From NCBI GenBank assembly GCA_029775925.1, contig JARVKB010000004.1, positions 1-64,000 of the forward strand: 64,000 bases of DNA, read 5' to 3'. The notes under the pieces are model-generated. The model searched no databases and was not told where the DNA came from. It saw only the letters and a program-made list of their open reading frames with translations. This document shows positions 8,554 to 57,368 of the stretch, piece after piece. This DNA is from Nitrososphaeria archaeon (GTDB lineage: Archaea; Thermoproteota; Nitrososphaeria; Nitrososphaerales; JACAEJ01). How positions within the stretch are numbered: the stretch's first letter is position 1; each line of letters begins with the position of its first letter. Both the position numbers and the translations under genes were made by a program.

Positions 8554-9111
8554 TTATCGATAATATTCTGGTTCTATCCTTCTAAGGAAGTAAAAAGTGT
8601 AAAAGGATATTATTGTTATTGAGAGAAATATTTTCGTAGCAAAGACAAGATTAAAACGCACTTCAGGGTTAGGAAAAGGATTGATAAGTATGTCAGGGTT
8701 TAGCTCGCCCAATATTTCGCTGGCACTCATAAGACTTCCCCAAAGAGTAAAGTTGAACAGAACCTCGTACAAAGCCATGGATCCTGCAAAGAAAGCGATT
8801 AACATGAATAAGTGTCTAGCGAATTTGGGAAATTTTGATATCATTTCCTTATTTAATTCAAGGAGTGAAAACCAAAAGACAATTAAAGATGCCATAAACC
8901 AGGTTATAGGTTTGGCGTAAATTGGAAAAATTGTAGGAGGAGGAAATTCTGTATTAACGAAAGTCTCTCCGACGACCTTTACCCCATACATTAACGTAGT
9001 AATTGCGCCATAAACTGTAACTGTAATTAAGATGATAAAAGAAATGAGACAGATTATTTTGTACATGATTCTGATTTTATTTTCTTCTTTAGATGAATTC
9101 ATCAATCTCAA
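8554..9111 (-). CDS. Membrane protein of unknown function
   Basis: ORF 185 aa, about four hydrophobic helices. Confidence 0.55.
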   Translation of the reverse strand: MRLMNSSKEENKIRIMYKIICLISFIILITVTVYGAITTLMYGVKVVGETFVNTEFPPPTIFPIYAKPITWFMASLIVFWFSLLELNKEMISKFPKFARHLFMLIAFFAGSMALYEVLFNFTLWGSLMSASEILGELNPDILINPFPNPEVRFNLVFATKIFLSITIISFYTFYFLRRIEPEYYR

Positions 9112-9165: not shown

Positions 9166-9195
9166 TTTATTATAGGAATTAATTCCTATAATAAA
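9166..9195. repeat. 30-bp perfect palindrome TTTATTATAGGAATT/AATTCCTATAATAAA
   Basis: Read directly; intergenic between the divergent 8554-9111(-) and 9734-10393(+) genes. Confidence 0.9.
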
Positions 9196-9653: not shown

Positions 9654-9675
9654 CAAGTGCAAAAATATTTTTGCA
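9654..9675. promoter_or_regulatory. Candidate operator CAAGTGCAAAAATATTTTTGCA (contains 18-bp palindrome at 9658-9675)
   Basis: Identical 22-nt string occurs at 56618-56639, upstream of the second methyltransferase operon. Confidence 0.65.
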
Positions 9676-9733
9676 TCAAGGAAGAATAGAAGAAAAATTT
9701 AAAAAAAACAACGTTATTTATAATCGAAAACAA

Positions 9734-10393
9734 ATGTCCCAGGAAGAAATTTTAGCCGAACTTGCTAAAGCAGTGATAGACGGTGACGTGGACAAGGCAA
9801 AGTATTTGGCACATAAAGTATTGGAGTTAAAAATAGATCCTTATAAAGCTATCATGGATGGATGCGCTGCAGGAATGAGGATAGTGGGGGAAAAATATCA
9901 AAATGGCGAAATGTTCATTCCTGAGTTACTATATTCAGCTGAAGCGATGTATGCTGCAACAGACGTCTTAAGCCCTCACATAAAAGCAGAAAAAATTCCA
10001 TATAGCGGTAAGGTAGTAATAGGTGTTGTTGAGGGCGATATACATGATATTGGCAAGAACATCTTGGTAACACTTTTAAAGGCAAGTGGGTTTGAAGTTG
10101 TAGACTTAGGCAGAGATGTGCCGACAAAAGATTTTGTGCAAAAAGCAAAGGATGAAAAAGCAGAAATCATAGCCATGTCAACTTTGATGACCACAACAGC
10201 TCCAGGAATGAAAAAGGTCATAGATGTATTGTATGAGGAGGGTATAAGAGATAAGGTAAAGACTATTATTGGAGGAGCAGCCGTTTCAAAAGAATTTGCT
10301 AAGGCTATAGGTGCAGATGCTTATGGAGAAGAGGTAGTCGACGGCGTAGAGATGGTCAAAAATCTTATGAGTTCTATTAAGAGAGGGGGATGA
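9734..10393 (+). CDS. Corrinoid (B12-binding) methyltransferase corrinoid protein, MtaC/MtbC/MttC family
   Basis: MSQEEILAELAKAVIDGD..., GDIHDIGKN B12-binding motif, ...IIGGAAVS. The track start at TTG 9671 falls inside the palindrome; ATG 9734 preferred. Confidence 0.88.
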   Translation: MSQEEILAELAKAVIDGDVDKAKYLAHKVLELKIDPYKAIMDGCAAGMRIVGEKYQNGEMFIPELLYSAEAMYAATDVLSPHIKAEKIPYSGKVVIGVVEGDIHDIGKNILVTLLKASGFEVVDLGRDVPTKDFVQKAKDEKAEIIAMSTLMTTTAPGMKKVIDVLYEEGIRDKVKTIIGGAAVSKEFAKAIGADAYGEEVVDGVEMVKNLMSSIKRGG

Positions 10394-11457
10394 AAAGTTT
10401 GGTAAAACCAATTGAAAGAGTTGTAGCTGCCTTAACATATAAGGATCCGGATAGGGTTCCTGCTGCACCATTAGTTTGTGGAGCATCAAGAAGAGTTTAT
10501 GGAGTTACATACGATGTTTGGTCTAGGGACCCTGTTATTGCTGCCAAATCTCTTATTGCTGCACAAGAGTTGATAGGTTTTGATGGTTTCTTGACATTAG
10601 TGGACTTGAGCGTAGAGCCCGCTGCCTTCGGTCAAAAAGTCTTATATCCTGTCGAAAGTACTGCTTTATCCGCAGCTTTCAAAGGTGATATGTTAATAAA
10701 GAGCGTAGACGATTACGATAAACTCGAATATGTAGACCCTAAAAAAGCTGACAGGATGAGAGATGTGATAAAAATCTGTGAGATACTTGTTCAAGCGAAA
10801 GGAAAAGAAGTTCCAACTTTGGGATTTGTATACGGTCCTGCCGGAACCCTATCTATGATGAGAACTTTAGAGAAGCTTAGTTTAGACCTAGTGAAAAATA
10901 AGTCAGCAGTTCTTAAAGGGCTGAAAATCGTAAATGATGTGCTATTTGATTACGCAAAAGCTCAGTGTGAAACAGGAGTTCCAGGGGTCGTTCTAGACGT
11001 TCTTTACGCATCAAAAATGATATGGAGTAGAAAGACATACGATGAGTTTGAAGGTCAGTTATGTTCAAAAATCGCTGATGAAATAAGAAAGCATAATGCT
11101 CTTGTAGTACTTCATAACTGTGGCCATGGGCCCTTCTTTGACACGATGATAAGCTGGTATAAGCCTGCCGCAATATCGTTCCACTATGTTCCTGATGATT
11201 GCAAAGACTATGCTGACACAAAGGAGAAGTATGGGAAAAAGACTGTACTGATAGGTCAAGCTGACAATCCTAAAGTAATCTACCCAGGTACTCCTGAAGA
11301 AGTTATGAACCATTGTGCGGAACAAATTAAAGTATATGGTCCCGGTAGTGGTTTCATACTTGCCACAGGTTGTGAATTTCCACCTAACGCTTCATTACTG
11401 AACGCTAGAGCAATGATAGAGGCTGCTGAGAAGTATGGTAAGTATCCAATGGCTTAA
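10390..11457 (+). CDS. Uroporphyrinogen decarboxylase-family methyltransferase (MtaA/MtbA/MtoB-like)
   Basis: UroD fold; HNCGHGP zinc-type motif; C-terminal GFILATGCEFPPNASLLNARAMIEAAEKYG; ATG overlaps the stop of the corrinoid gene. Confidence 0.85.
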   Translation: MKSLVKPIERVVAALTYKDPDRVPAAPLVCGASRRVYGVTYDVWSRDPVIAAKSLIAAQELIGFDGFLTLVDLSVEPAAFGQKVLYPVESTALSAAFKGDMLIKSVDDYDKLEYVDPKKADRMRDVIKICEILVQAKGKEVPTLGFVYGPAGTLSMMRTLEKLSLDLVKNKSAVLKGLKIVNDVLFDYAKAQCETGVPGVVLDVLYASKMIWSRKTYDEFEGQLCSKIADEIRKHNALVVLHNCGHGPFFDTMISWYKPAAISFHYVPDDCKDYADTKEKYGKKTVLIGQADNPKVIYPGTPEEVMNHCAEQIKVYGPGSGFILATGCEFPPNASLLNARAMIEAAEKYGKYPMA

Positions 11458-11975
11458 CCATTGGGTACTTCATTTTTCTTTTTTTGAATTATCAATCGAA
11501 TCAAAGATGGATTTATTCCTTCTAACCATTCATTAGGTGCTTTTTCAACACTCGAGAGTGGGGCAAGCTTCACTATTCTTTGTTTTGCTCCAAGTTTGAT
11601 GAGCTCTACAACAAGAAATAAGAAAATCTTTCCATTCATTATGCCTATGTCCATGGCATACGTTCTGAAACCTTCTTTTATACGATACCTTCTTGCCGTT
11701 ATTCTGGCTAGAAATCTTGCTTCAAGCTTAGAGTAAAGTGAAGGACTTACAGTAGGAGGGAGTTTACTTGGAACTTCTCTTAGTTCATCTATTCTTTTTT
11801 CAAGTTCTAATAACATCTTCCGAATCTCTTCAGGGTTTTGCCTATTTTCTAATCTAAATCCTTCTATAGTGATATTCTCGTACTGTGATTCTTCTATCAA
11901 GGGATAAATTTCTATAGCTGAAGGGTAGTCCTGACAAAAAATGATATGTATTTCTTCATCCTTTGTTTCTGACAT
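11454..11975 (-). CDS. Hypothetical protein, last gene of the methyltransferase accessory operon
   Basis: ORF 173 aa, convergent with the UroD-type methyltransferase (4-nt overlap). Confidence 0.6.
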   Translation of the reverse strand: MSETKDEEIHIIFCQDYPSAIEIYPLIEESQYENITIEGFRLENRQNPEEIRKMLLELEKRIDELREVPSKLPPTVSPSLYSKLEARFLARITARRYRIKEGFRTYAMDIGIMNGKIFLFLVVELIKLGAKQRIVKLAPLSSVEKAPNEWLEGINPSLIRLIIQKKKNEVPNG

Positions 11976-12006
11976 GAAACATCATCTTAAAATATGAATT
12001 AAATTA

Positions 12007-12498
12007 TTACTCATTCTTTTTTCGTTCCTCTTCCTTTGGTTGTATTGGAATGTCGAACTTATCAAAATACTCATGCTCTTTCTCAATTTCTATATTAAAA
12101 CCATAATTCAACAATACTTCATTCGAAGCCTCAAGAGTCGCCATCTTGACTTGAGATTTGTCTATTCCCTGTACTATGCTATTTATAACAAGGTACGCTT
12201 GAGTTATAGGCTCTGTTATGCTACTTTCAACATAAACTCCTTTTTCTAAGCCTATCGTATCTGCTTTTAGGTACCCGTGTTTGGTCTTCATATAGGATTT
12301 TATATGACCGATGAATTTTGCACCTTTCTCAATACAATAGGAAGCTATTCTTAACATTAACTTATTACCCATCTCTTTGATAGCATCTATATTGATAGGC
12401 TCTGATCGAGTAAGCCTAAAAGCAACAGCGTAGCCACTTACGCCAAAGGGCTCATAGCATGCTTTAGTTGAACTGCTTTCAACCTTTTCTGAACTCAT
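12007..12498 (-). CDS. Hypothetical protein in the accessory operon
   Basis: ORF 163 aa between 11454 and the CobW-like gene; family not recognised. Confidence 0.6.
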   Translation of the reverse strand: MSSEKVESSSTKACYEPFGVSGYAVAFRLTRSEPINIDAIKEMGNKLMLRIASYCIEKGAKFIGHIKSYMKTKHGYLKADTIGLEKGVYVESSITEPITQAYLVINSIVQGIDKSQVKMATLEASNEVLLNYGFNIEIEKEHEYFDKFDIPIQPKEEERKKNE

Positions 12499-12512
12499 GA
12501 ATTAATCACCTT

Positions 12513-13148
12513 TTATCTTATCTGATAAGCTGGATATTCTACAGGCTCTGTAATAAGCTTCGCCAATTCTACCATACCGTCTCCTCTAATAGAGGATATT
12601 CTCATGATTTTTGCTTTCTGGTTTATCTTTTTAACTTCCTGCTCACAATCAACTAACTGCTCCTCATTTACAACATCGATCTTACTTATGGCTATAATAT
12701 CTGCATCAGAGATTTGCCTGATCACTATGTTTCCTAATATGTCATTGAAGAGCAGCTCTTCCGGTCTTGTCGCATCGAATAAAACAACAGCCGGTCCCAA
12801 ATTTATGTCACAATCTCTTTTTGCCATAAGGGCGGCCAACTTAACTTGATTTGGTATAGCTACTCCTGTCGGCTCTACTAAAATAAAGTCAGGTTTAAAG
12901 GTTTGAGATAGTAAAATGAGTGTATTAGTAAAGCTTGTGGCTATCTCACAACAAATGCAACCTCCACCTAAGTCTTTAACTCTTAACCCATACTCTTCTA
13001 CAACCTTGCCATCTACAGGAATCTCTCCAATTTCGTTTACAACCAGAGCAACTCTCTTTTTAAAATCACCACTTAAAGTTCTAGCCAAGGATATTATGGC
13101 TGATGTTTTTCCAGAACCAAGAAAGCCTGCTATCTGAATTATTCTCAT
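12513..13148 (-). CDS. CobW/HypB/UreG-like P-loop GTPase (metallochaperone type)
   Basis: GFLGSGKTSAI Walker A, GGGCICCE metal motif, SKIDVV. Confidence 0.8.
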   Translation of the reverse strand: MRIIQIAGFLGSGKTSAIISLARTLSGDFKKRVALVVNEIGEIPVDGKVVEEYGLRVKDLGGGCICCEIATSFTNTLILLSQTFKPDFILVEPTGVAIPNQVKLAALMAKRDCDINLGPAVVLFDATRPEELLFNDILGNIVIRQISDADIIAISKIDVVNEEQLVDCEQEVKKINQKAKIMRISSIRGDGMVELAKLITEPVEYPAYQIR

Positions 13149-13173: not shown

Positions 13174-15123
13174 TTATATTTTTCTTATAACTGGTCGTCC
13201 AATGGCTGATACTTTTATTTCTGACCAAACGAAACCTACTTTTGGGAATATTCCATCTCTCCTATCTATCTTAATCTTTAAGTCCTCTGCACCAGATCTT
13301 TTAGCTAACTTTGTAGCTTCTTCTGTCCCCATCTTTATTGCAAAGTTTATGGCTTCTTCTATGGTTCCAAAAATATATCTTCCTGGGAATACCACATACC
13401 TATCAGGTTTTACCTCTTTTGCTATGTACATCTCAAAAGAACCTATCACACTCCCAACAAGGGAACCTACAGCTGCTCCAACTTCATGATGTTCAGGTAT
13501 GATTGCTAAAGTTCCAAGCCTTCTAGCCACTTCTGGTAAAAATAGGTAGACTGGTGCACCTATGCCTATCAATGGTATATCCAGCTTTGCTAGAACTCGA
13601 AAATCTCCATCATTATTTCCATCAGAAATCTTTCTTATTATTTCAGAGCATGCTATACATTTTTGATTTAAATCCCATTTATTTAGCTTTAACATCATCT
13701 TTTCAAATATTCTCGATACCAACTTTTCTACAATCAATTGCCATATCTTTTTTTGAAGCTCGTCAAGCGTCATTCCATTCTTTCTGGCGAAAAGGTCGGC
13801 ACCCAGGATAGCAGCATCAACGTCTCCTGCAGTATAAATCCCCTTTGCATGCATGATATCTGTTGGAGTTAAGCCTATCCCAATTATGTACCCTCTCTCC
13901 ATCAGGAACGAAATCAACAAATCAGCGATGGGGAAATCTGTCATATTATTGCTTATCTCAAGAAGGGTTGTTGGCTCCAGCTCTTGAACCGTCTTTAGAA
14001 ACTTTTCAGACAATCCGCCTATGTTTTCGGCTTTCCGAGGTGCCTGACTGACGGTAATAAAATCTGTAGTCTTGTATTGTTCCATCTTCTTTAGTAAATT
14101 AGGAAATATTGATGCAGCAAATGCAAGAGGTATAACTCTTTGTGGACCTAAATCGATACCTTTTTCAGGATCTATATGTATCCATCCATCTCCTCCTATT
14201 CCCCAAGCATCAGCATCTACTGCCTTTACTCTTGTCTTCCAGCCTGCAATACGAACTCCGTCCTCAACCACGTGAGGGGCATTCCCTTTGGAAGTTGTTA
14301 TTATCGATGTTGTACTTCCCATGTCTATTACTACGGCATCTTCTTTGCCAGCTAGGAATAGCCCACCAAGTACACTTGCTGCAGGTCCTGACTGAATTCC
14401 TTCTATCGGTCTTTCTAAAGCAACTTCTTCATTCATAAGAGAACCGTCACCTTTTACTATCATTAAGGGTACATTCAAGCCCTTCTGATCTAATGCATCT
14501 CTTATTTCTCTTATGAGATTTTGGACTATAGGAATTAGCCTTGCGTTAAGGACCGCTGTAACAGTCCTCTCATAAATTCCGAGCTCTGTTGCAAGTTCAT
14601 ATCCACAAGTGACTGGTTTTCCAGTCTTTTTCTTTATCCATTCTTTGACAGTCAATTCATGCATCGGATTTCTTACGCTAAAGTATCCTGATACTGCAAA
14701 GGAGTCAACATTTTTATTCATATTTTCAATGGTTAAGATGACTTCATCTATATCTAACTGTGCTTGTTCAACACCGTCAGGTCCATGGCCTCCTTTAACA
14801 GTCATGATTGTTGCTGCAGGTATGTCCCAAGTTTTCTCAGGTTCAAATCCAATTAAAATCAAGCCGACCTTTGCACCTTTTCCTTCAATGACAGCATTTG
14901 TGGCAAGAGTTGAAGCAAGAGAAACCAAAACAATTTCATTCGCAGGAATACCGCTGATCGATAAAACCTTATTTATCGATTCAATGATTCCAACAGATAA
15001 ATCATAATGCGTTGTCCTTGATTTTGTCTTTGCAACTATTTTCTTATCGTCCATTCTCATAATTACTGCATCTGTATGAGATCCGCCCGTGCTTACACCT
15101 ATCCCAAACAATAATCTCACCAT
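13174..15123 (-). CDS. Hydantoinase/oxoprolinase-family ASKHA protein, candidate corrinoid-protein reactivase
   Basis: GVSTGGSHTDAVIM, ...STLATNAVIEGKGAKVGLIL, VIDMGSTTSIITTSKG motifs; adjacent to the corrinoid methyltransferase genes. Confidence 0.75.
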   Translation of the reverse strand: MVRLLFGIGVSTGGSHTDAVIMRMDDKKIVAKTKSRTTHYDLSVGIIESINKVLSISGIPANEIVLVSLASTLATNAVIEGKGAKVGLILIGFEPEKTWDIPAATIMTVKGGHGPDGVEQAQLDIDEVILTIENMNKNVDSFAVSGYFSVRNPMHELTVKEWIKKKTGKPVTCGYELATELGIYERTVTAVLNARLIPIVQNLIREIRDALDQKGLNVPLMIVKGDGSLMNEEVALERPIEGIQSGPAASVLGGLFLAGKEDAVVIDMGSTTSIITTSKGNAPHVVEDGVRIAGWKTRVKAVDADAWGIGGDGWIHIDPEKGIDLGPQRVIPLAFAASIFPNLLKKMEQYKTTDFITVSQAPRKAENIGGLSEKFLKTVQELEPTTLLEISNNMTDFPIADLLISFLMERGYIIGIGLTPTDIMHAKGIYTAGDVDAAILGADLFARKNGMTLDELQKKIWQLIVEKLVSRIFEKMMLKLNKWDLNQKCIACSEIIRKISDGNNDGDFRVLAKLDIPLIGIGAPVYLFLPEVARRLGTLAIIPEHHEVGAAVGSLVGSVIGSFEMYIAKEVKPDRYVVFPGRYIFGTIEEAINFAIKMGTEEATKLAKRSGAEDLKIKIDRRDGIFPKVGFVWSEIKVSAIGRPVIRKI

Positions 15124-42349: not shown

Positions 42350-42928
42350 TTGGGAAAAACGATATTAAATAATGATTCCATAATTTTGATAGAAATGACA
42401 AGCAAATTTAACGAAGACGGTAAATCGGCCGGTAAGACCGAAGATCAGATAAGAGAAGCAAAAATTTTTGCTTCAAGGCTTCAAAGAGCAATAAGCACAG
42501 GTCACACAACACAGAGTAAAATGAGAGAAGTTAATAAATTCATTAGCCATCGCTTGATCACTAAGACGGCTTCCATTCTTCAAAACATAGACAATCTTGC
42601 AAAAGAAACTCGAAGTATAACAATAAAGGAGGATTTTAACAGAATTTACATAAAACTTCTTAGTATTTTTAATGAGTTTAAGCTTATGGAAAGTAAGGGA
42701 TATGAGACCATGGTAAGATCAGGAAAGGTAGATGTAGATAGATTGAATGATTTAATAGATGTGGACACAGAATTATCAAACATGGTTGTTTTACTTTACG
42801 AGTTTGTTGAAAGATTATCGTTAAAAAAATCTACCAAAGTTAATGAACGTAAAGAAATTTTACATATGTTGGATGATGTGATTCTAGCTTTGAAGAGGCG
42901 TAATGAAATCATAAAAACAAAGATTTAG
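42350..42928 (+). CDS. Hypothetical helical protein
   Basis: ORF 192 aa; start uncertain (TTG or internal ATG). Confidence 0.5.
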   Translation: MGKTILNNDSIILIEMTSKFNEDGKSAGKTEDQIREAKIFASRLQRAISTGHTTQSKMREVNKFISHRLITKTASILQNIDNLAKETRSITIKEDFNRIYIKLLSIFNEFKLMESKGYETMVRSGKVDVDRLNDLIDVDTELSNMVVLLYEFVERLSLKKSTKVNERKEILHMLDDVILALKRRNEIIKTKI

Positions 42929-52746: not shown

Positions 52747-54126
52747 TTAATTTATATTAGTCTTTGAGAAAGTTTTTTCCCTGTAAAGAGATTTTCCATC
52801 TATGCTTGTAATATTGAAAAGGCAGAACGGTATGAGTTTCTTGTCAGGCGTAACAACATGTATGCAGCATTCTTGAACTCTTTCTAATTCAACGTTCCAT
52901 ACGTCTTGGAAGGCCATCGTTGAAACTGTTAAGTAATTTTCTGACATCCTTTTTATTAAATCCATCCAAGTCCCTGGCTCACACCCACATAATAAGTTAT
53001 CTCCTAAACCCAACTGTTCCATAATAGATTCTTCTGGGAACTTCCAAAGATCTTTAATAGCATCACGAGTCTTCTTTGATATATCTTCTACTTCACACGA
53101 TGGGCAGGAAAGATTGCTAGTAAGTGGTAAAAGCTTACCATTCTCTAAAACGACAGAGTAGCTTCTAGCATCACAATGCACGTTAGGGCAAGAAGTAGGA
53201 GTAAAGTTCTCAACTTTTAGCTCTCCCCTTGTTTGGGCCTCTATAGCTTTTAGGATATCAGGTATGGTCACTCTATCGTTATTATTTGGTAGAGAAGGGT
53301 ATCTGCCAAAATAACTTAGAGGTTGAAAATGAACACCGTTTACCGTTGGAACCCATTTTTTAGCAAAATTTATTATATCACCTATTTGATCATAATTGAC
53401 TCCTTTTTCAATCACAGGTACGAGTACTACACCTATCTCTAACTTTGAACAGTTTTCAAGAGCTTTAAGTTTAACATCAAGAAGGTCTAAACCACACCTT
53501 TTTTCATATACGTCCTTAGTTAAGCCATCAAAAGAGAAATAAAGTGCATCCACACCTTTCTCTTTCAATTCTTTAAAATAATCAAAATCTTTACTCAATC
53601 TTATGGCATTTGTGTTCAACTCTATATAATCTATGCCCATTTCCTTTCCCATAGCAACTATTTCTGGGAGATCATCTCTCACTGTGGGTTCGCCACCGCT
53701 TATTTGAACACATATGGGTTTAGGACAGTTTTTTAATAATGTCTCATACATTCCTTCAATAGTTTGGATGTCTGGATGATAATTGTATGATTTAGCACTT
53801 GCAAAGCAATAGGGGCAATTTAAATTACATCTATTTGTAATTTCTAAGACTGCAACACAAGTTCTTTGTTTATGAGCAGGGCACAGTCCACAATCGTTTG
53901 GGCATCCATTCTTAGAGTCAGTGATTGTCTGATCTGGTTTCTTCTTTTTGACGTTAAACTTAAAGCGGTCTATATAAGAGGTTACCCCTCTCCAAATGAT
54001 CGTTTTAAAAGATCCGTGATCTGGGCAAGATTTTTCAAGAAAAACATCATCCTTCTCAACAACTTTTCTAGCAGGAATCTTTCTTAAACATTTTGGACAG
54101 AGACTTTCAGTCTCACCTATTAGCAT
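52747..54126 (-). CDS. Radical SAM protein with N-terminal Cys motifs (TrsS/tetraether-synthase-like architecture)
   Basis: LCPKCLRKIPAR...KSCPDHGSFKTIIW; CPNDCGLCPAHKQRTCVAVLEITNRCNLNCPYCFAS; C-terminal CCIHVVTPDKKLIPFCLFN. Confidence 0.82.
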   Translation of the reverse strand: MLIGETESLCPKCLRKIPARKVVEKDDVFLEKSCPDHGSFKTIIWRGVTSYIDRFKFNVKKKKPDQTITDSKNGCPNDCGLCPAHKQRTCVAVLEITNRCNLNCPYCFASAKSYNYHPDIQTIEGMYETLLKNCPKPICVQISGGEPTVRDDLPEIVAMGKEMGIDYIELNTNAIRLSKDFDYFKELKEKGVDALYFSFDGLTKDVYEKRCGLDLLDVKLKALENCSKLEIGVVLVPVIEKGVNYDQIGDIINFAKKWVPTVNGVHFQPLSYFGRYPSLPNNNDRVTIPDILKAIEAQTRGELKVENFTPTSCPNVHCDARSYSVVLENGKLLPLTSNLSCPSCEVEDISKKTRDAIKDLWKFPEESIMEQLGLGDNLLCGCEPGTWMDLIKRMSENYLTVSTMAFQDVWNVELERVQECCIHVVTPDKKLIPFCLFNITSIDGKSLYREKTFSKTNIN

Positions 54127-54171
54127 ATTAACAATAAATGCATGAAATCTTAAATACTTTTTTAGATCTAT

Positions 54172-54549
54172 TTATCTAAATGGATTTTCTCCAACATCAT
54201 TATAATATTCTAATAGTACTTTATTAGCCCTTCTAGATACTCTCCTTTTTTCAAATTTTGAATAAACGATACGAAGTGTTCTAAGATCCCATTCTGTATC
54301 GCATTTCGGACATCTAGCAAGCTCACAACCTCTGACACTACCTGGGCAGCCTTGGCAACTTATGGCTCTGGCCCATAAAAGGCTAAATTCAGCGTTGCAT
54401 TCTGGGCATCTTACTAATTTGGCAGTCTTCCAAACCATGCCGGTAGGGTCGATCTGGTTTAAGCAAGTAGGAGTCTCGTAGAAGGATCTATGAACGTTAA
54501 AATCTTTCCTTCTTTCTTCATACAATTTCCTTAATTGTGAAGTTTTCAT
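54172..54549 (-). CDS. Cys-rich zinc-ribbon/redox-type small protein
   Basis: RCPECNAEF...CQGCPGSVRGCELARCPKCDTEW; 125 aa; within the operon. Confidence 0.65.
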   Translation of the reverse strand: MKTSQLRKLYEERRKDFNVHRSFYETPTCLNQIDPTGMVWKTAKLVRCPECNAEFSLLWARAISCQGCPGSVRGCELARCPKCDTEWDLRTLRIVYSKFEKRRVSRRANKVLLEYYNDVGENPFR

Positions 54550-54610
54550 AATCGATCAATATTGATAATAAAGATATTTAAAGCTATCTAAAAAAATAAA
54601 AGGTGGTGCC

Positions 54611-55096
54611 TTATGCCCTCTTCTTTTCGAAGAGCATTTCAGCCACAGCAACTGGCTTTGCCGCTATGTCTTCTTCAATATAACTTTCTTGACATTTAGG
54701 GCAGGTAAGAGTTGGGGCCATTCTAACGATGCCCATGTATTCTAGATCGAACTGTCCTCGGACTGTTTGGACATCGTCCTTGGCACACCACCAGTCCTTT
54801 ACTTCTTCTGGGACTGTATAGACTAAGTTCTTCATACGCATCTTATGGCTATAGACCTTCTTGATTACATATGCTGTGACTGGGTGGGTTCCGGGAGCTG
54901 CTGGAGCATACATTACATATAGGGTTATATTATCCATGATCTTTTTTGCTAAATTTTCTCCAGTGACTTTATTGATGAGCTTTGCCTTCTTCTCTTCAGC
55001 TTCATAAACTAATTTTTTGCACATATCAGCAGAGATGCCCTTTTGGGCTAGGGCATTCTCAATCTCTTTTGGAACCAAAACATCTATCATTACCAT
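54611..55096 (-). CDS. Small redox-type protein with C-terminal CPKC...EEDIA motif (resembles the DVU_1557-type family, by eye)
   Basis: LTCPKCQESYIEEDIAAKPVAVAEMLFEKKRA; 161 aa. Confidence 0.55.
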   Translation of the reverse strand: MVMIDVLVPKEIENALAQKGISADMCKKLVYEAEEKKAKLINKVTGENLAKKIMDNITLYVMYAPAAPGTHPVTAYVIKKVYSHKMRMKNLVYTVPEEVKDWWCAKDDVQTVRGQFDLEYMGIVRMAPTLTCPKCQESYIEEDIAAKPVAVAEMLFEKKRA

Positions 55097-55099
55097 TTT

Positions 55100-56317
55100 T
55101 CACCACGTCCCATACGTTCCATAATCCTTACACGCTTTTACCGCTGCTAATGTACAGCCAGGATTTGTAATCAAAGGAGTCTCACAAGTAGTTCCCAATA
55201 TACATCCTCTAGGCGAATCCCTTGCTTTGAGGAGTTGACTCTTGCTTTGTTCGTATATGAAAGAGAAGTTCGGTTCTATCATCCTCTTCCCATCTACCGT
55301 TGTGAGTAGAGTCATCCTATTGCCAAATTCCTTCTTTAATAGATCCCCTGGGAATACATCATCACCATAGTATCCTATGTGTATAACTGTGAAAGGCGTG
55401 GTAATAACATCTCTCCACATCGGGTAATCTCTTGAATGATCTCCACAAAGATGATACCATAATTGAGGGCCACCACCACCTGCAAGCGCCCTTCTTACAA
55501 AGTCTCTTTGATGATCGAAGGAGAATTCCTTTACGTACTTCGGTGGTAAGACTGTGGAGTTGGCTAAAACACTACCTATTACCATCATGTCAAACCCATA
55601 TCTATCAGCTGTAAGAGATGCCCCATTCGCACTAGTGTAAGCAAGGGCATCAAGAATCTTATGGCAAGCCTTAGGTTCTTTTCTAGTCCATATGATGAAC
55701 TTCTCAGGACCTACTAACTCAGCAGCCATTGAGAATAAGCAGAATACATTATGCATAGGTAACATCATGTCAGGTATGTTGGCTTTTTCATAATCAAAAG
55801 CTCTCCAATGAAGCTCGGTTGTCTTGCATTTATCTGGCGTCAAATCTTCTTTCTCAAACTTCTGTATTTTATCAGCATCTTCAGGATTCTTTATCGGTCT
55901 ATCTCCTACAACGATCCATGGAAGTGTATTGGTTGTTTGTAGCTTAACCCCGTACTTCTCCAAGAATACGTTAGAATAGAAGAAGTGGGCGACTGGTAAA
56001 AGATCAAACAGCTCATTAAAATATGCTACACAATGAACAGCAATCTCGGGATACTCATAGAAATCTCTGTTAGTGAAACCTAGCAAAGTGGTTGCGTGTG
56101 CCATGACTATAGGATCGAAATCTATTCTATCTTTGAATACATCAACGAAAGGAGATGCAAAACGTGTAACAGACCCTGTGTGCCATTTTTTATGTGATTC
56201 AGTATCATGTGAGATGAAGTGAGATGGTAGTTTATCAATTGGAACAGTAGGTTGGTAGCTCATATTCTTTCGGAAAAGAAATATCGACTCCCTTATATAA
56301 GAATTTTGAATTAACAT
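55100..56317 (-). CDS. Uroporphyrinogen decarboxylase-family methyltransferase (second copy)
   Basis: WYHLCGDHSRD HxCG motif; C-terminal CILGTTCETPLITNPGCTLAAVKACKDYGTYG parallels 10390-11457. Confidence 0.8.
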   Translation of the reverse strand: MLIQNSYIRESIFLFRKNMSYQPTVPIDKLPSHFISHDTESHKKWHTGSVTRFASPFVDVFKDRIDFDPIVMAHATTLLGFTNRDFYEYPEIAVHCVAYFNELFDLLPVAHFFYSNVFLEKYGVKLQTTNTLPWIVVGDRPIKNPEDADKIQKFEKEDLTPDKCKTTELHWRAFDYEKANIPDMMLPMHNVFCLFSMAAELVGPEKFIIWTRKEPKACHKILDALAYTSANGASLTADRYGFDMMVIGSVLANSTVLPPKYVKEFSFDHQRDFVRRALAGGGGPQLWYHLCGDHSRDYPMWRDVITTPFTVIHIGYYGDDVFPGDLLKKEFGNRMTLLTTVDGKRMIEPNFSFIYEQSKSQLLKARDSPRGCILGTTCETPLITNPGCTLAAVKACKDYGTYGTW

Positions 56318-56326
56318 CGTTATATT

Positions 56327-56599
56327 CTAAATCGCTTCTTTTAACTTCTTCTTTGCATAAAAGTAGGTCCTTCTACTTATCAACCCATTCCGAAAGTCAT
56401 CTTCAAGAAGACTTATGGCCAGAGTAGTCCCTCTTAATTCAAGATATTTTTGGATTTTGCTCTTTCTTCCAATCTTAGCGTCTAACTTTTGTATAATATT
56501 TAATACAGGCTCTCTCTCGATAACAGCAAGATTGTAAACTCTTTCAAGAATAGCAGTGAAAGCCTTCTCCCCAAGTTTCTCCAATAGTCTTCGAAACAT
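56327..56599 (-). CDS. Small basic protein, first gene of the second methyltransferase operon
   Basis: MFRRLLEKLGEKAFTAILERVYNLAVIEREP...; the track start at TTG 56626 is inside the palindrome, so ATG 56599 is preferred. Confidence 0.55.
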   Translation of the reverse strand: MFRRLLEKLGEKAFTAILERVYNLAVIEREPVLNIIQKLDAKIGRKSKIQKYLELRGTTLAISLLEDDFRNGLISRRTYFYAKKKLKEAI

Positions 56600-56618
56600 A
56601 TATTCTAATTTTCTTTCC

Positions 56619-56642
56619 AAGTGCAAAAATATTTTTGCACTT
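56619..56642. promoter_or_regulatory. 24-bp perfect palindrome AAGTGCAAAAATATTTTTGCACTT, candidate operator
   Basis: Centre is ~31 nt upstream of ATG 56599; 22 nt (56618-56639) identical to 9654-9675. Confidence 0.7.
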
Positions 56643-56798: not shown

Positions 56799-57368
56799 TT
56801 AAACAATTAACACCATTCCATATACGTCAAAATCTTCGGTTGTAGAAGTATGCACTTTGGTCTTATATCCAGCTTTTCTTACAGTCTCATCCACATCTAT
56901 CCCTAAAGATTCCATAGCTGGTCTGGCAATATTAGGATTCTTACACTTCCCTGGTTGAAGAACGCACTCATCACATAAAAGGCAAGGTCCACAAACTGTA
57001 GCAAAAGCTGATTGATACCCAGATAGGAAGATCTGTCTCTCTAACTCTGCAGCTGTTTTTTGTAATATTACCATGTTTTTTATTGAGTGAGTTCCACTTT
57101 GAAAGACGCCTTCTGGTACTTTTGATGAAAAGCGCATAGTGAATAGAAGCGCCCAGTTGTATTCTTTAATGAATTTTCTTGTCTGGTCTGGTGTGGGACT
57201 AAAGGGTGGGCAAGTTAAATAATGATTATAGAAAGGACAACCATACTGGCATTTAAGCCTTGTTCTATCATTTATGACTATATTATCTGTGCTTATGATC
57301 TTTGCATCGAATGCTCCAAGCTTTCTTGCCAATTCACAAAACTTTGTCAAATCTTCTAGAATTTCCAT
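56799..57368 (-). CDS. DUF2284-type Cys-rich metal-binding protein
   Basis: CQYGCPFYNHYLTCPPFSPTPDQTRKFIKEYNWALL...CGPCLLCDECVLQPGKCKNPNIARPAMESLGIDV. Confidence 0.8.
   Translation of the reverse strand: MEILEDLTKFCELARKLGAFDAKIISTDNIVINDRTRLKCQYGCPFYNHYLTCPPFSPTPDQTRKFIKEYNWALLFTMRFSSKVPEGVFQSGTHSIKNMVILQKTAAELERQIFLSGYQSAFATVCGPCLLCDECVLQPGKCKNPNIARPAMESLGIDVDETVRKAGYKTKVHTSTTEDFDVYGMVLIV

Follow-up and report, generated by a model that had tools for sequence, protein, structure and literature searches.

The 64,000-nucleotide stretch analysed here (the window; positions 1 to 64,000 of contig JARVKB010000004.1 from a Nitrososphaeria archaeon, genome G000) carries a five-gene operon encoding a UroD-superfamily methyltransferase, UroD2, and a radical S-adenosylmethionine (SAM) protein of the TrsS family. 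A second locus 46 kb away, at 9734-11457, encodes a corrinoid protein and another UroD-type methyltransferase, UroD1. On balance, we lean slightly towards the operon and this locus forming one corrinoid-dependent methyl-transfer module under a common operator, coupled to the radical chemistry of TrsS. In our best reading, the module would be a corrinoid-dependent S- or Se-methyltransferase with radical chemistry of the type described for the tetraether lipid synthase Tes, hence a corrinoid version of the Trs system.

The five-gene operon is conserved in related Nitrososphaeria

Five closely spaced open reading frames occupy the minus strand from 56626 to 52747, where the initial annotation of this DNA had placed an operon:

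56327..56626, minus strand: gene 1, small basic protein, 99 aa from TTG (90 aa from ATG)
55100..56317, minus strand: gene 2, UroD2, UroD-superfamily corrinoid methyltransferase with the zinc motif H289, C291, C378
54611..55096, minus strand: gene 3, 161-aa DUF7479/DVU_1557-type protein with CPKC in its C-terminal DUF7479 part
54172..54549, minus strand: gene 4, 125-aa zinc-ribbon protein, CPxC...CQGCPxSVxGCE...CPxC
52747..54126, minus strand: gene 5, TrsS radical SAM protein with Tes-type metal sites, matching NF045646

The window genome was compared with three related Nitrososphaeria metagenome-assembled genomes (L020/G196, L021/G250 and L022/G251). The order and orientation of all five genes are identical in these relatives, at 73-92% identity, and the operon is therefore real. 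In the same three genomes a DVU_1553-type ligase gene and a DUF169 gene adjoin the operon; in G000 both are found on another contig (G000:C21:3467-5500, L114), indicating that the cluster is split in this genome.

Gene 1 matched no known family in NCBIfam or Pfam scans and is 73-82% identical to its three relatives. Its start is most likely TTG 56626 rather than ATG 56599, since the window and L021 differ at four positions in the nine codons ahead of the ATG and all four differences are synonymous. The N-terminal part of the gene 3 product matches the end of the dicluster-binding protein family NF045663 and its C-terminal part corresponds to DUF7479 (PF24292; 45.2 bits, gathering cut-off 27). 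The suggestion that this protein is of the DVU_1557 type thus stood at the domain level; the DVU_1557 model itself (NF045645) was covered over its full 60 positions at a score below cut-off (30.0 vs 60 bits). Neither profile comparison nor fold comparison (best E 0.16 by fold) gave a credible PDB relative for gene 3. Gene 4 showed weak zinc-ribbon matches in the NCBIfam and Pfam scans and is conserved in L020-L023, L092 and L093. CLJU_RS11820, another family that had been proposed for comparison, was not among the NCBIfam matches listed for the five operon proteins (for TrsS, the best 25 of 62).

The gene immediately upstream of the operon (56799-57368) encodes a DUF2284 metal-binding protein. 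It may belong to the system, because a 66% identical copy is found in the UroD2 cluster of L023.

UroD2 retains the zinc motif of S- and Se-methyltransferases

UroD2 passed the UroD superfamily model PF01208 (56.7 bits, gathering cut-off 23.9) and scored below the MtaA/CmuA models (TIGR01463, 31.5 of 235.4 bits; NF040654, 18.0 of 400 bits). Its AlphaFold model has a mean predicted local distance difference test score of 72 and a predicted template modelling score of 0.74, residues 1-61 being unreliable. The best solved fold was MtaA (4ay7; Z 30.6, root-mean-square deviation 3.0 over 330 residues, 17% identity), followed by uroporphyrinogen decarboxylases, in keeping with the TIM-barrel fold of the superfamily. 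A PDB sequence search with UroD2 alone returned no match; a profile of 8 UroD2 homologues retrieved MtaA, then CdmB. The zinc residues on which the initial annotation had made methyl transfer depend are present: the WYHLCG motif (H289, C291) and C378 are invariant in the 8 homologues and aligned with the MtaA zinc motif.

A His-Cys-Cys motif in the UroD superfamily is a mark of S- and Se-methyltransferases (PMC10418091). Because UroD2 keeps this motif, its substrate is predicted to be a thiol, thioether or selenide. A haloalkane enzyme resembling the chloromethane methyltransferase CdmB is disfavoured: CdmB is zinc-independent (PMC13222342) and shows no HxC...C motif when aligned with UroD2.

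A palindrome links the operon to the corrinoid locus

The start of the operon and the region upstream of the corrinoid gene carry copies of the same palindrome:

56619..56642, no strand: perfect 24-bp palindrome, AAGTGCAAAAATATTTTTGCACTT, putative operator of the operon
9655..9676, no strand: second copy of the palindrome, core GTGCAAAAATATTTTTGCAT at 9657-9676
9734..10393, plus strand: corrinoid protein (B12-binding, DIHDIG motif), proposed methyl carrier for UroD2
10390..11457, plus strand: UroD1, MtaA/MtbA-like methyltransferase, overlapping the corrinoid gene, proposed second methyltransferase

The first copy includes the TTG start codon of gene 1 and the second lies ~60 nt ahead of ATG 9734. 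Searching the 1,401,784-bp genome for the 20-bp core with up to 3 mismatches gave two sites, 56621-56640 (exact) and 9657-9676 (1 mismatch). A backwards control pattern of the core gave no matches in the same search, and about 0.0003 chance matches are expected from base composition at up to 1 mismatch. The copy at the operon is retained in L020-L022, and thus in all four genomes. In G251, the other genome with a 9734-type locus, the corrinoid gene has GTGCGAAAATAATTATGCAC at the matching place, with the outer arms retained and the centre altered by substitutions. As the palindrome occurs at only these two loci in the genome and is retained in relatives, these comparisons support co-regulation of the operon with the corrinoid locus, and the operator sharing claimed in the initial annotation was borne out to this extent.

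G196 and G251 have a third copy, next to another methyltransferase locus that encodes a UroD protein, a Ram-like activator, a DUF4443 regulator, an MtbA-like UroD protein and a corrinoid protein. G250 has one weak two-mismatch site inside an unrelated gene. Nearly all palindrome copies seen sit at corrinoid/UroD loci. The position of the third copy between two gene ends (L069/L070) prompted us to consider a terminator, which is disfavoured for the window because its copies sit at the operon start and ahead of the corrinoid gene. Retention merely as coding sequence was rejected: in the window, the left half of the palindrome lies ahead of any possible start codon of gene 1, and the other loci carry their copies in non-coding DNA.

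The DUF4443 winged-helix protein of the second methyltransferase locus (G000:C21:24040-24663 and L070:7687-8343) is a candidate regulator of the palindrome; in G196 and G251 the third copy sits just past the 3' end of its gene. Two further perfect palindromes were observed in the window. One of 24 bp, ATTATAGGAATTAATTCCTATAAT (9169-9192), lies just upstream of the minus-strand gene 8554-9111, in the intergenic region that also holds the corrinoid promoter. The other, of 20 bp, GAAGCAAAAATTTTTGCTTC (42455-42474), has a similar AT core and different arms.

UroD2 is found with corrinoid proteins in other genomes

The 9734 product passed the model for methyltransferase-cognate corrinoid proteins (TIGR02370; 220.2 bits, cut-off 215.3). 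UroD1 bears the same zinc motif as UroD2 and, since it scores closer to coenzyme M methyltransferases (113.6 vs 32.3 bits), is the likelier acceptor-side enzyme.

Neighbourhoods in other genomes argue for UroD2 working with a corrinoid protein, as had been proposed. In L092, from another Thermoproteota family, genes for a corrinoid protein, UroD2, a DUF7479 protein and an MtbA-like UroD protein form one apparent operon, divergent from the zinc-ribbon and TrsS genes; the corrinoid protein adjoining UroD2 shares 55% identity with the 9734 product and 46% with that of C21. In L024 (Candidatus Methanohalarchaeum), a corrinoid gene directly follows that of a UroD2 relative (31%). L023/L055 carries a corrinoid protein, an AcsV/RACo-like activator, CobW, UroD2 and a DUF7479 protein on one 14.8-kb contig. 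In L093, UroD2 and TrsS occur together with relatives of two window genes (12007 and 12513) that neighbour the 9734 gene. These neighbours are part of one further feature:

11454..13148, minus strand: two unknown proteins and a CobW-type GTPase beside the corrinoid locus

Of these, CobW and the 12007-12498 type are found again near UroD2 in L093, and CobW also in L023.

Several observations weigh against a single module. G196 and G250 hold the operon, and their best corrinoid proteins are just 53% and 50% identical to the 9734 product; either other corrinoid proteins must serve in these genomes, or the two loci are only loosely paired. No corrinoid gene was seen in G272 up to a distance of about 20 kb from UroD2. 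The UroD2-linked corrinoid proteins do not form one clade: grouping the proteins of the window, G251 and G265 is merely compatible with the data (approximately unbiased test, p-AU 0.39), and adding that of L024 was rejected (p-AU 1e-5). An operator role is harder to see for the third palindrome copy of G196 and G251, which is flanked by two convergent genes. Finally, the presence of CdhC (acetyl-CoA synthase) in G000 and its relatives counts in favour of the module, yet G265 and G272 lack it, so acetyl-CoA synthesis is not a general fate of the methyl group. The corrinoid partnership, the zinc residues and the co-regulation of the earlier interpretation thus found comparative support; the strict co-occurrence of the two loci failed, as two of the four genomes (G196 and G250) have no 9734-type corrinoid protein.

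Alternatively, the two loci could be functionally separate and respond through a common regulator to the same global signal, with UroD2 using the C21 or C23 corrinoid protein. The genome encodes four corrinoid and seven UroD-family proteins, the 9734 type is missing from G196 and G250, and the corrinoid protein of L023/L055 is nearer the C21/C23 type (62% vs 53% for the 9734 type), all of which favour separation. We nevertheless regard it as rather unlikely, because the palindrome is confined to just these two loci and, among the proteins compared, the one from outside the genus that comes closest to the 9734 protein is the UroD2-linked corrinoid protein of G265.

Two side observations concern corrinoid proteins. 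A hydantoinase/oxoprolinase-like ATPase-fold protein (13174-15123) adjoins the CobW gene and the corrinoid locus, is kept in G251 and possibly has a role in corrinoid or metal activation. The 2.1-Mb genome G253 (Candidatus Methanohalarchaeum) gave about 20 corrinoid-protein matches, several with TAA inside the matched stretch; these are possibly pseudogenes or cases of stop-codon recoding.

TrsS retains the metal sites of Tes

The gene 5 product scored 552.9 bits against the TrsS model NF045646 (cut-off 490, residues 5-449), so the family guessed by eye in the initial annotation was right. TrsS also aligns with Tes/GDGT-MAS over most of its length, and its motifs match the metal sites of the Tes structure 7tol (PMC9433317). 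They comprise a rubredoxin motif (C10-x2-C13-x20-C34-x2-H37), an N-terminal cluster motif (C75/C79/C82), the radical SAM motif (C100/C104/C107) and the C-terminal cysteines C318/C420/C421/C435 with the labile methionine M404 (Met439 in Tes). In Tes, the C-terminal cluster bonds to a substrate carbon (PMC9433317). Gene 5 was rejected as Tes itself on the cut-off of the Tes model NF045702 (399.1 vs 450 bits) and the missing Tyr459, which is replaced by V424. The TrsS proteins of L092:8847-10205 and L093:9362-10747 have lost the N-terminal Fe-S cluster cysteines and kept the other metal-site residues. TrsS is listed as a selenoprotein family (PMC13188914). In the literature searched it appears only as a table entry, and no literature was found for the locus tags DVU1551-1557.

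Methyl-handling enzymes appear to be exchanged around TrsS

Among 398 Thermoproteota genomes, TrsS was found in 5, UroD2 in 4 and both in 3 (hypergeometric P 3.8e-6, uncorrected for kinship). In UroD2 genomes, TrsS is accompanied by the DUF7479 protein, the zinc ribbon, the DVU_1553-type ligase and DUF169; no DVU_1556- or arsenite-type SAM-methyltransferase was found in these TrsS neighbourhoods. Two genomes with TrsS gave no UroD2 match. In one, G478 (L090), the TrsS gene and the end of a gene for a DVU_1556-type SAM-methyltransferase (144.7 bits, cut-off 155) overlap, and a DVU_1557-type fusion protein is encoded nearby; in the other, G323 (L091), it lies near an arsenite methyltransferase. 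From these few genomes, it looks as if methyl-handling enzymes are exchanged around a common TrsS core.

If the module adds methyl groups instead of removing them, it could be an archaeal Trs pathway in which methyl-corrinoid and UroD2 supply the methyl group in place of a SAM-dependent methyltransferase, and TrsS modifies the methylated or acceptor molecule to yield an unknown cofactor or metabolite. The alternation of UroD2 with SAM-methyltransferases, the association of the DVU_1553-type ligase with the UroD2 type and the lack of an evident catabolic sink in G265 and G272, which are without CdhC, make such a biosynthetic role a tentative possibility. The SAM-type TrsS genomes are just two in this phylum, however, and the UroD2 relative of Candidatus Methanohalarchaeum belongs to a bare methyltransferase-corrinoid pair. 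Such a pair is the typical layout of catabolic methyl donors in methyl-reducing methanogens.

TrsS, the DUF7479 protein and the zinc ribbon could instead act in maturation, installing or repairing a modified residue or metal site of UroD2 or the corrinoid protein, without any small-molecule substrate. Tight co-localisation with UroD2 and the many small Cys-rich proteins are consistent with this, and several radical SAM relatives of TrsS, among the matches listed, are peptide maturases. We consider it improbable, given that TrsS also occurs without UroD2, beside SAM-methyltransferases, that its nearest solved relative acts on lipids rather than proteins (PMC9433317) and that no TrsS was seen near the UroD2 relative of L024.

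Proposed mechanism and host setting

For the single module that we favour, the operon would provide the substrate-side half and 9734-11457 the corrinoid half, both controlled through one putative palindromic operator. UroD2 would be a zinc-dependent enzyme that shuttles a methyl group between the corrinoid protein and a sulfur (or selenium) atom in a small substrate. UroD1 would exchange this group with a carrier thiol, for instance coenzyme M, or channel it towards the Wood-Ljungdahl pathway. Together with the DUF7479 protein and the zinc ribbon, TrsS would perform or support radical chemistry on the same substrate; the Tes-type sites it keeps include that of the cluster forming a carbon-sulfur bond with the substrate in Tes. 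For the DVU_1553-type adenylating enzyme, encoded next to the operon in relatives, activation of a carboxylate is the probable role. That the substrate carries sulfur or selenium, that the two loci are partners in the cell, which way the methyl group flows and that TrsS acts on the substrate are points that we infer.

One of the relatives, JZ2_bin.220247 (L022), named Candidatus Methylarchaeum tengchongensis (PMC9478090), is reported to have mcr, mtaA, mtsA, mttBC and mtrAH and is predicted to be a hydrogen-dependent methylotrophic (methyl-reducing) methanogen (PMC6783470, PMC10833072). It was suggested that this methanogen may use unknown methylated compounds (PMC6783470). As this genome has the same operon, UroD2 is a concrete candidate methyltransferase for them. 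In a more specific form, which is possible though well short of probable, methyl-corrinoid and Tes-type radical chemistry would meet on one molecule: TrsS would make or break a C-S (or C-C) bond in a methylthio or methylseleno acid and UroD2 with the corrinoid protein would remove or add the methyl group. If true, methyl groups would enter methanogenesis or the Wood-Ljungdahl pathway of Nitrososphaeria by a route not described before, and the TrsS family would gain a defined function. TrsS is so far a named family without known function, for which the link to a corrinoid methyltransferase bearing an S/Se-type zinc motif gives a testable substrate class.

Comparison with known systems

The operon resembles the TrsS/DVU_1557/DVU_1553 set in its TrsS above cut-off, its DUF7479 domain and the DVU_1553-type ligase, whose gene is close to the operon in the relatives and at another place in G000. 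It differs in having a UroD2/corrinoid pair where L090 has a DVU_1556-type SAM-methyltransferase. Unlike selenoprotein TrsS, the window protein has Cys rather than Sec and, unlike DVU_1557 itself, the DVU_1557 domain of gene 3 is fused to the end of a dicluster protein family.

UroD2 shares the UroD fold, the His-Cys-Cys motif and a corrinoid partner with the soluble methyl-CoM methyltransferases MtaA, MtbA and MtsA and with the MtaA-like proteins encoded in type 1 mlp gene clusters (PMC10418091). It is only 17% identical to MtaA over 330 aligned residues and has an extra N-terminus of about 60 residues; unlike the MtaA/MtbA/MtsA systems, its operon has a TrsS module and no Ram gene. A type 1 mlp gene cluster consists of two Mlps, a corrinoid protein and Ram, in one direction and within 2 kb, whereas here the corrinoid protein and UroD1 are 46 kb off and Ram is missing from the operon. 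CdmB (PDB 9rui; PMC13222342) is likewise a substrate-side enzyme of the UroD superfamily with a corrinoid partner; it differs from UroD2 in working without zinc and without the aligned HxC...C motif. TrsS, in turn, shares with the Tes/GDGT-MAS tetraether lipid synthase (PDB 7tol; PMC9433317) the labile Met and the metal-site motifs for each of the four metallocofactors, and is set apart from it by a sub-cut-off score for the Tes model, the non-conserved Tyr459 and a different genomic setting.

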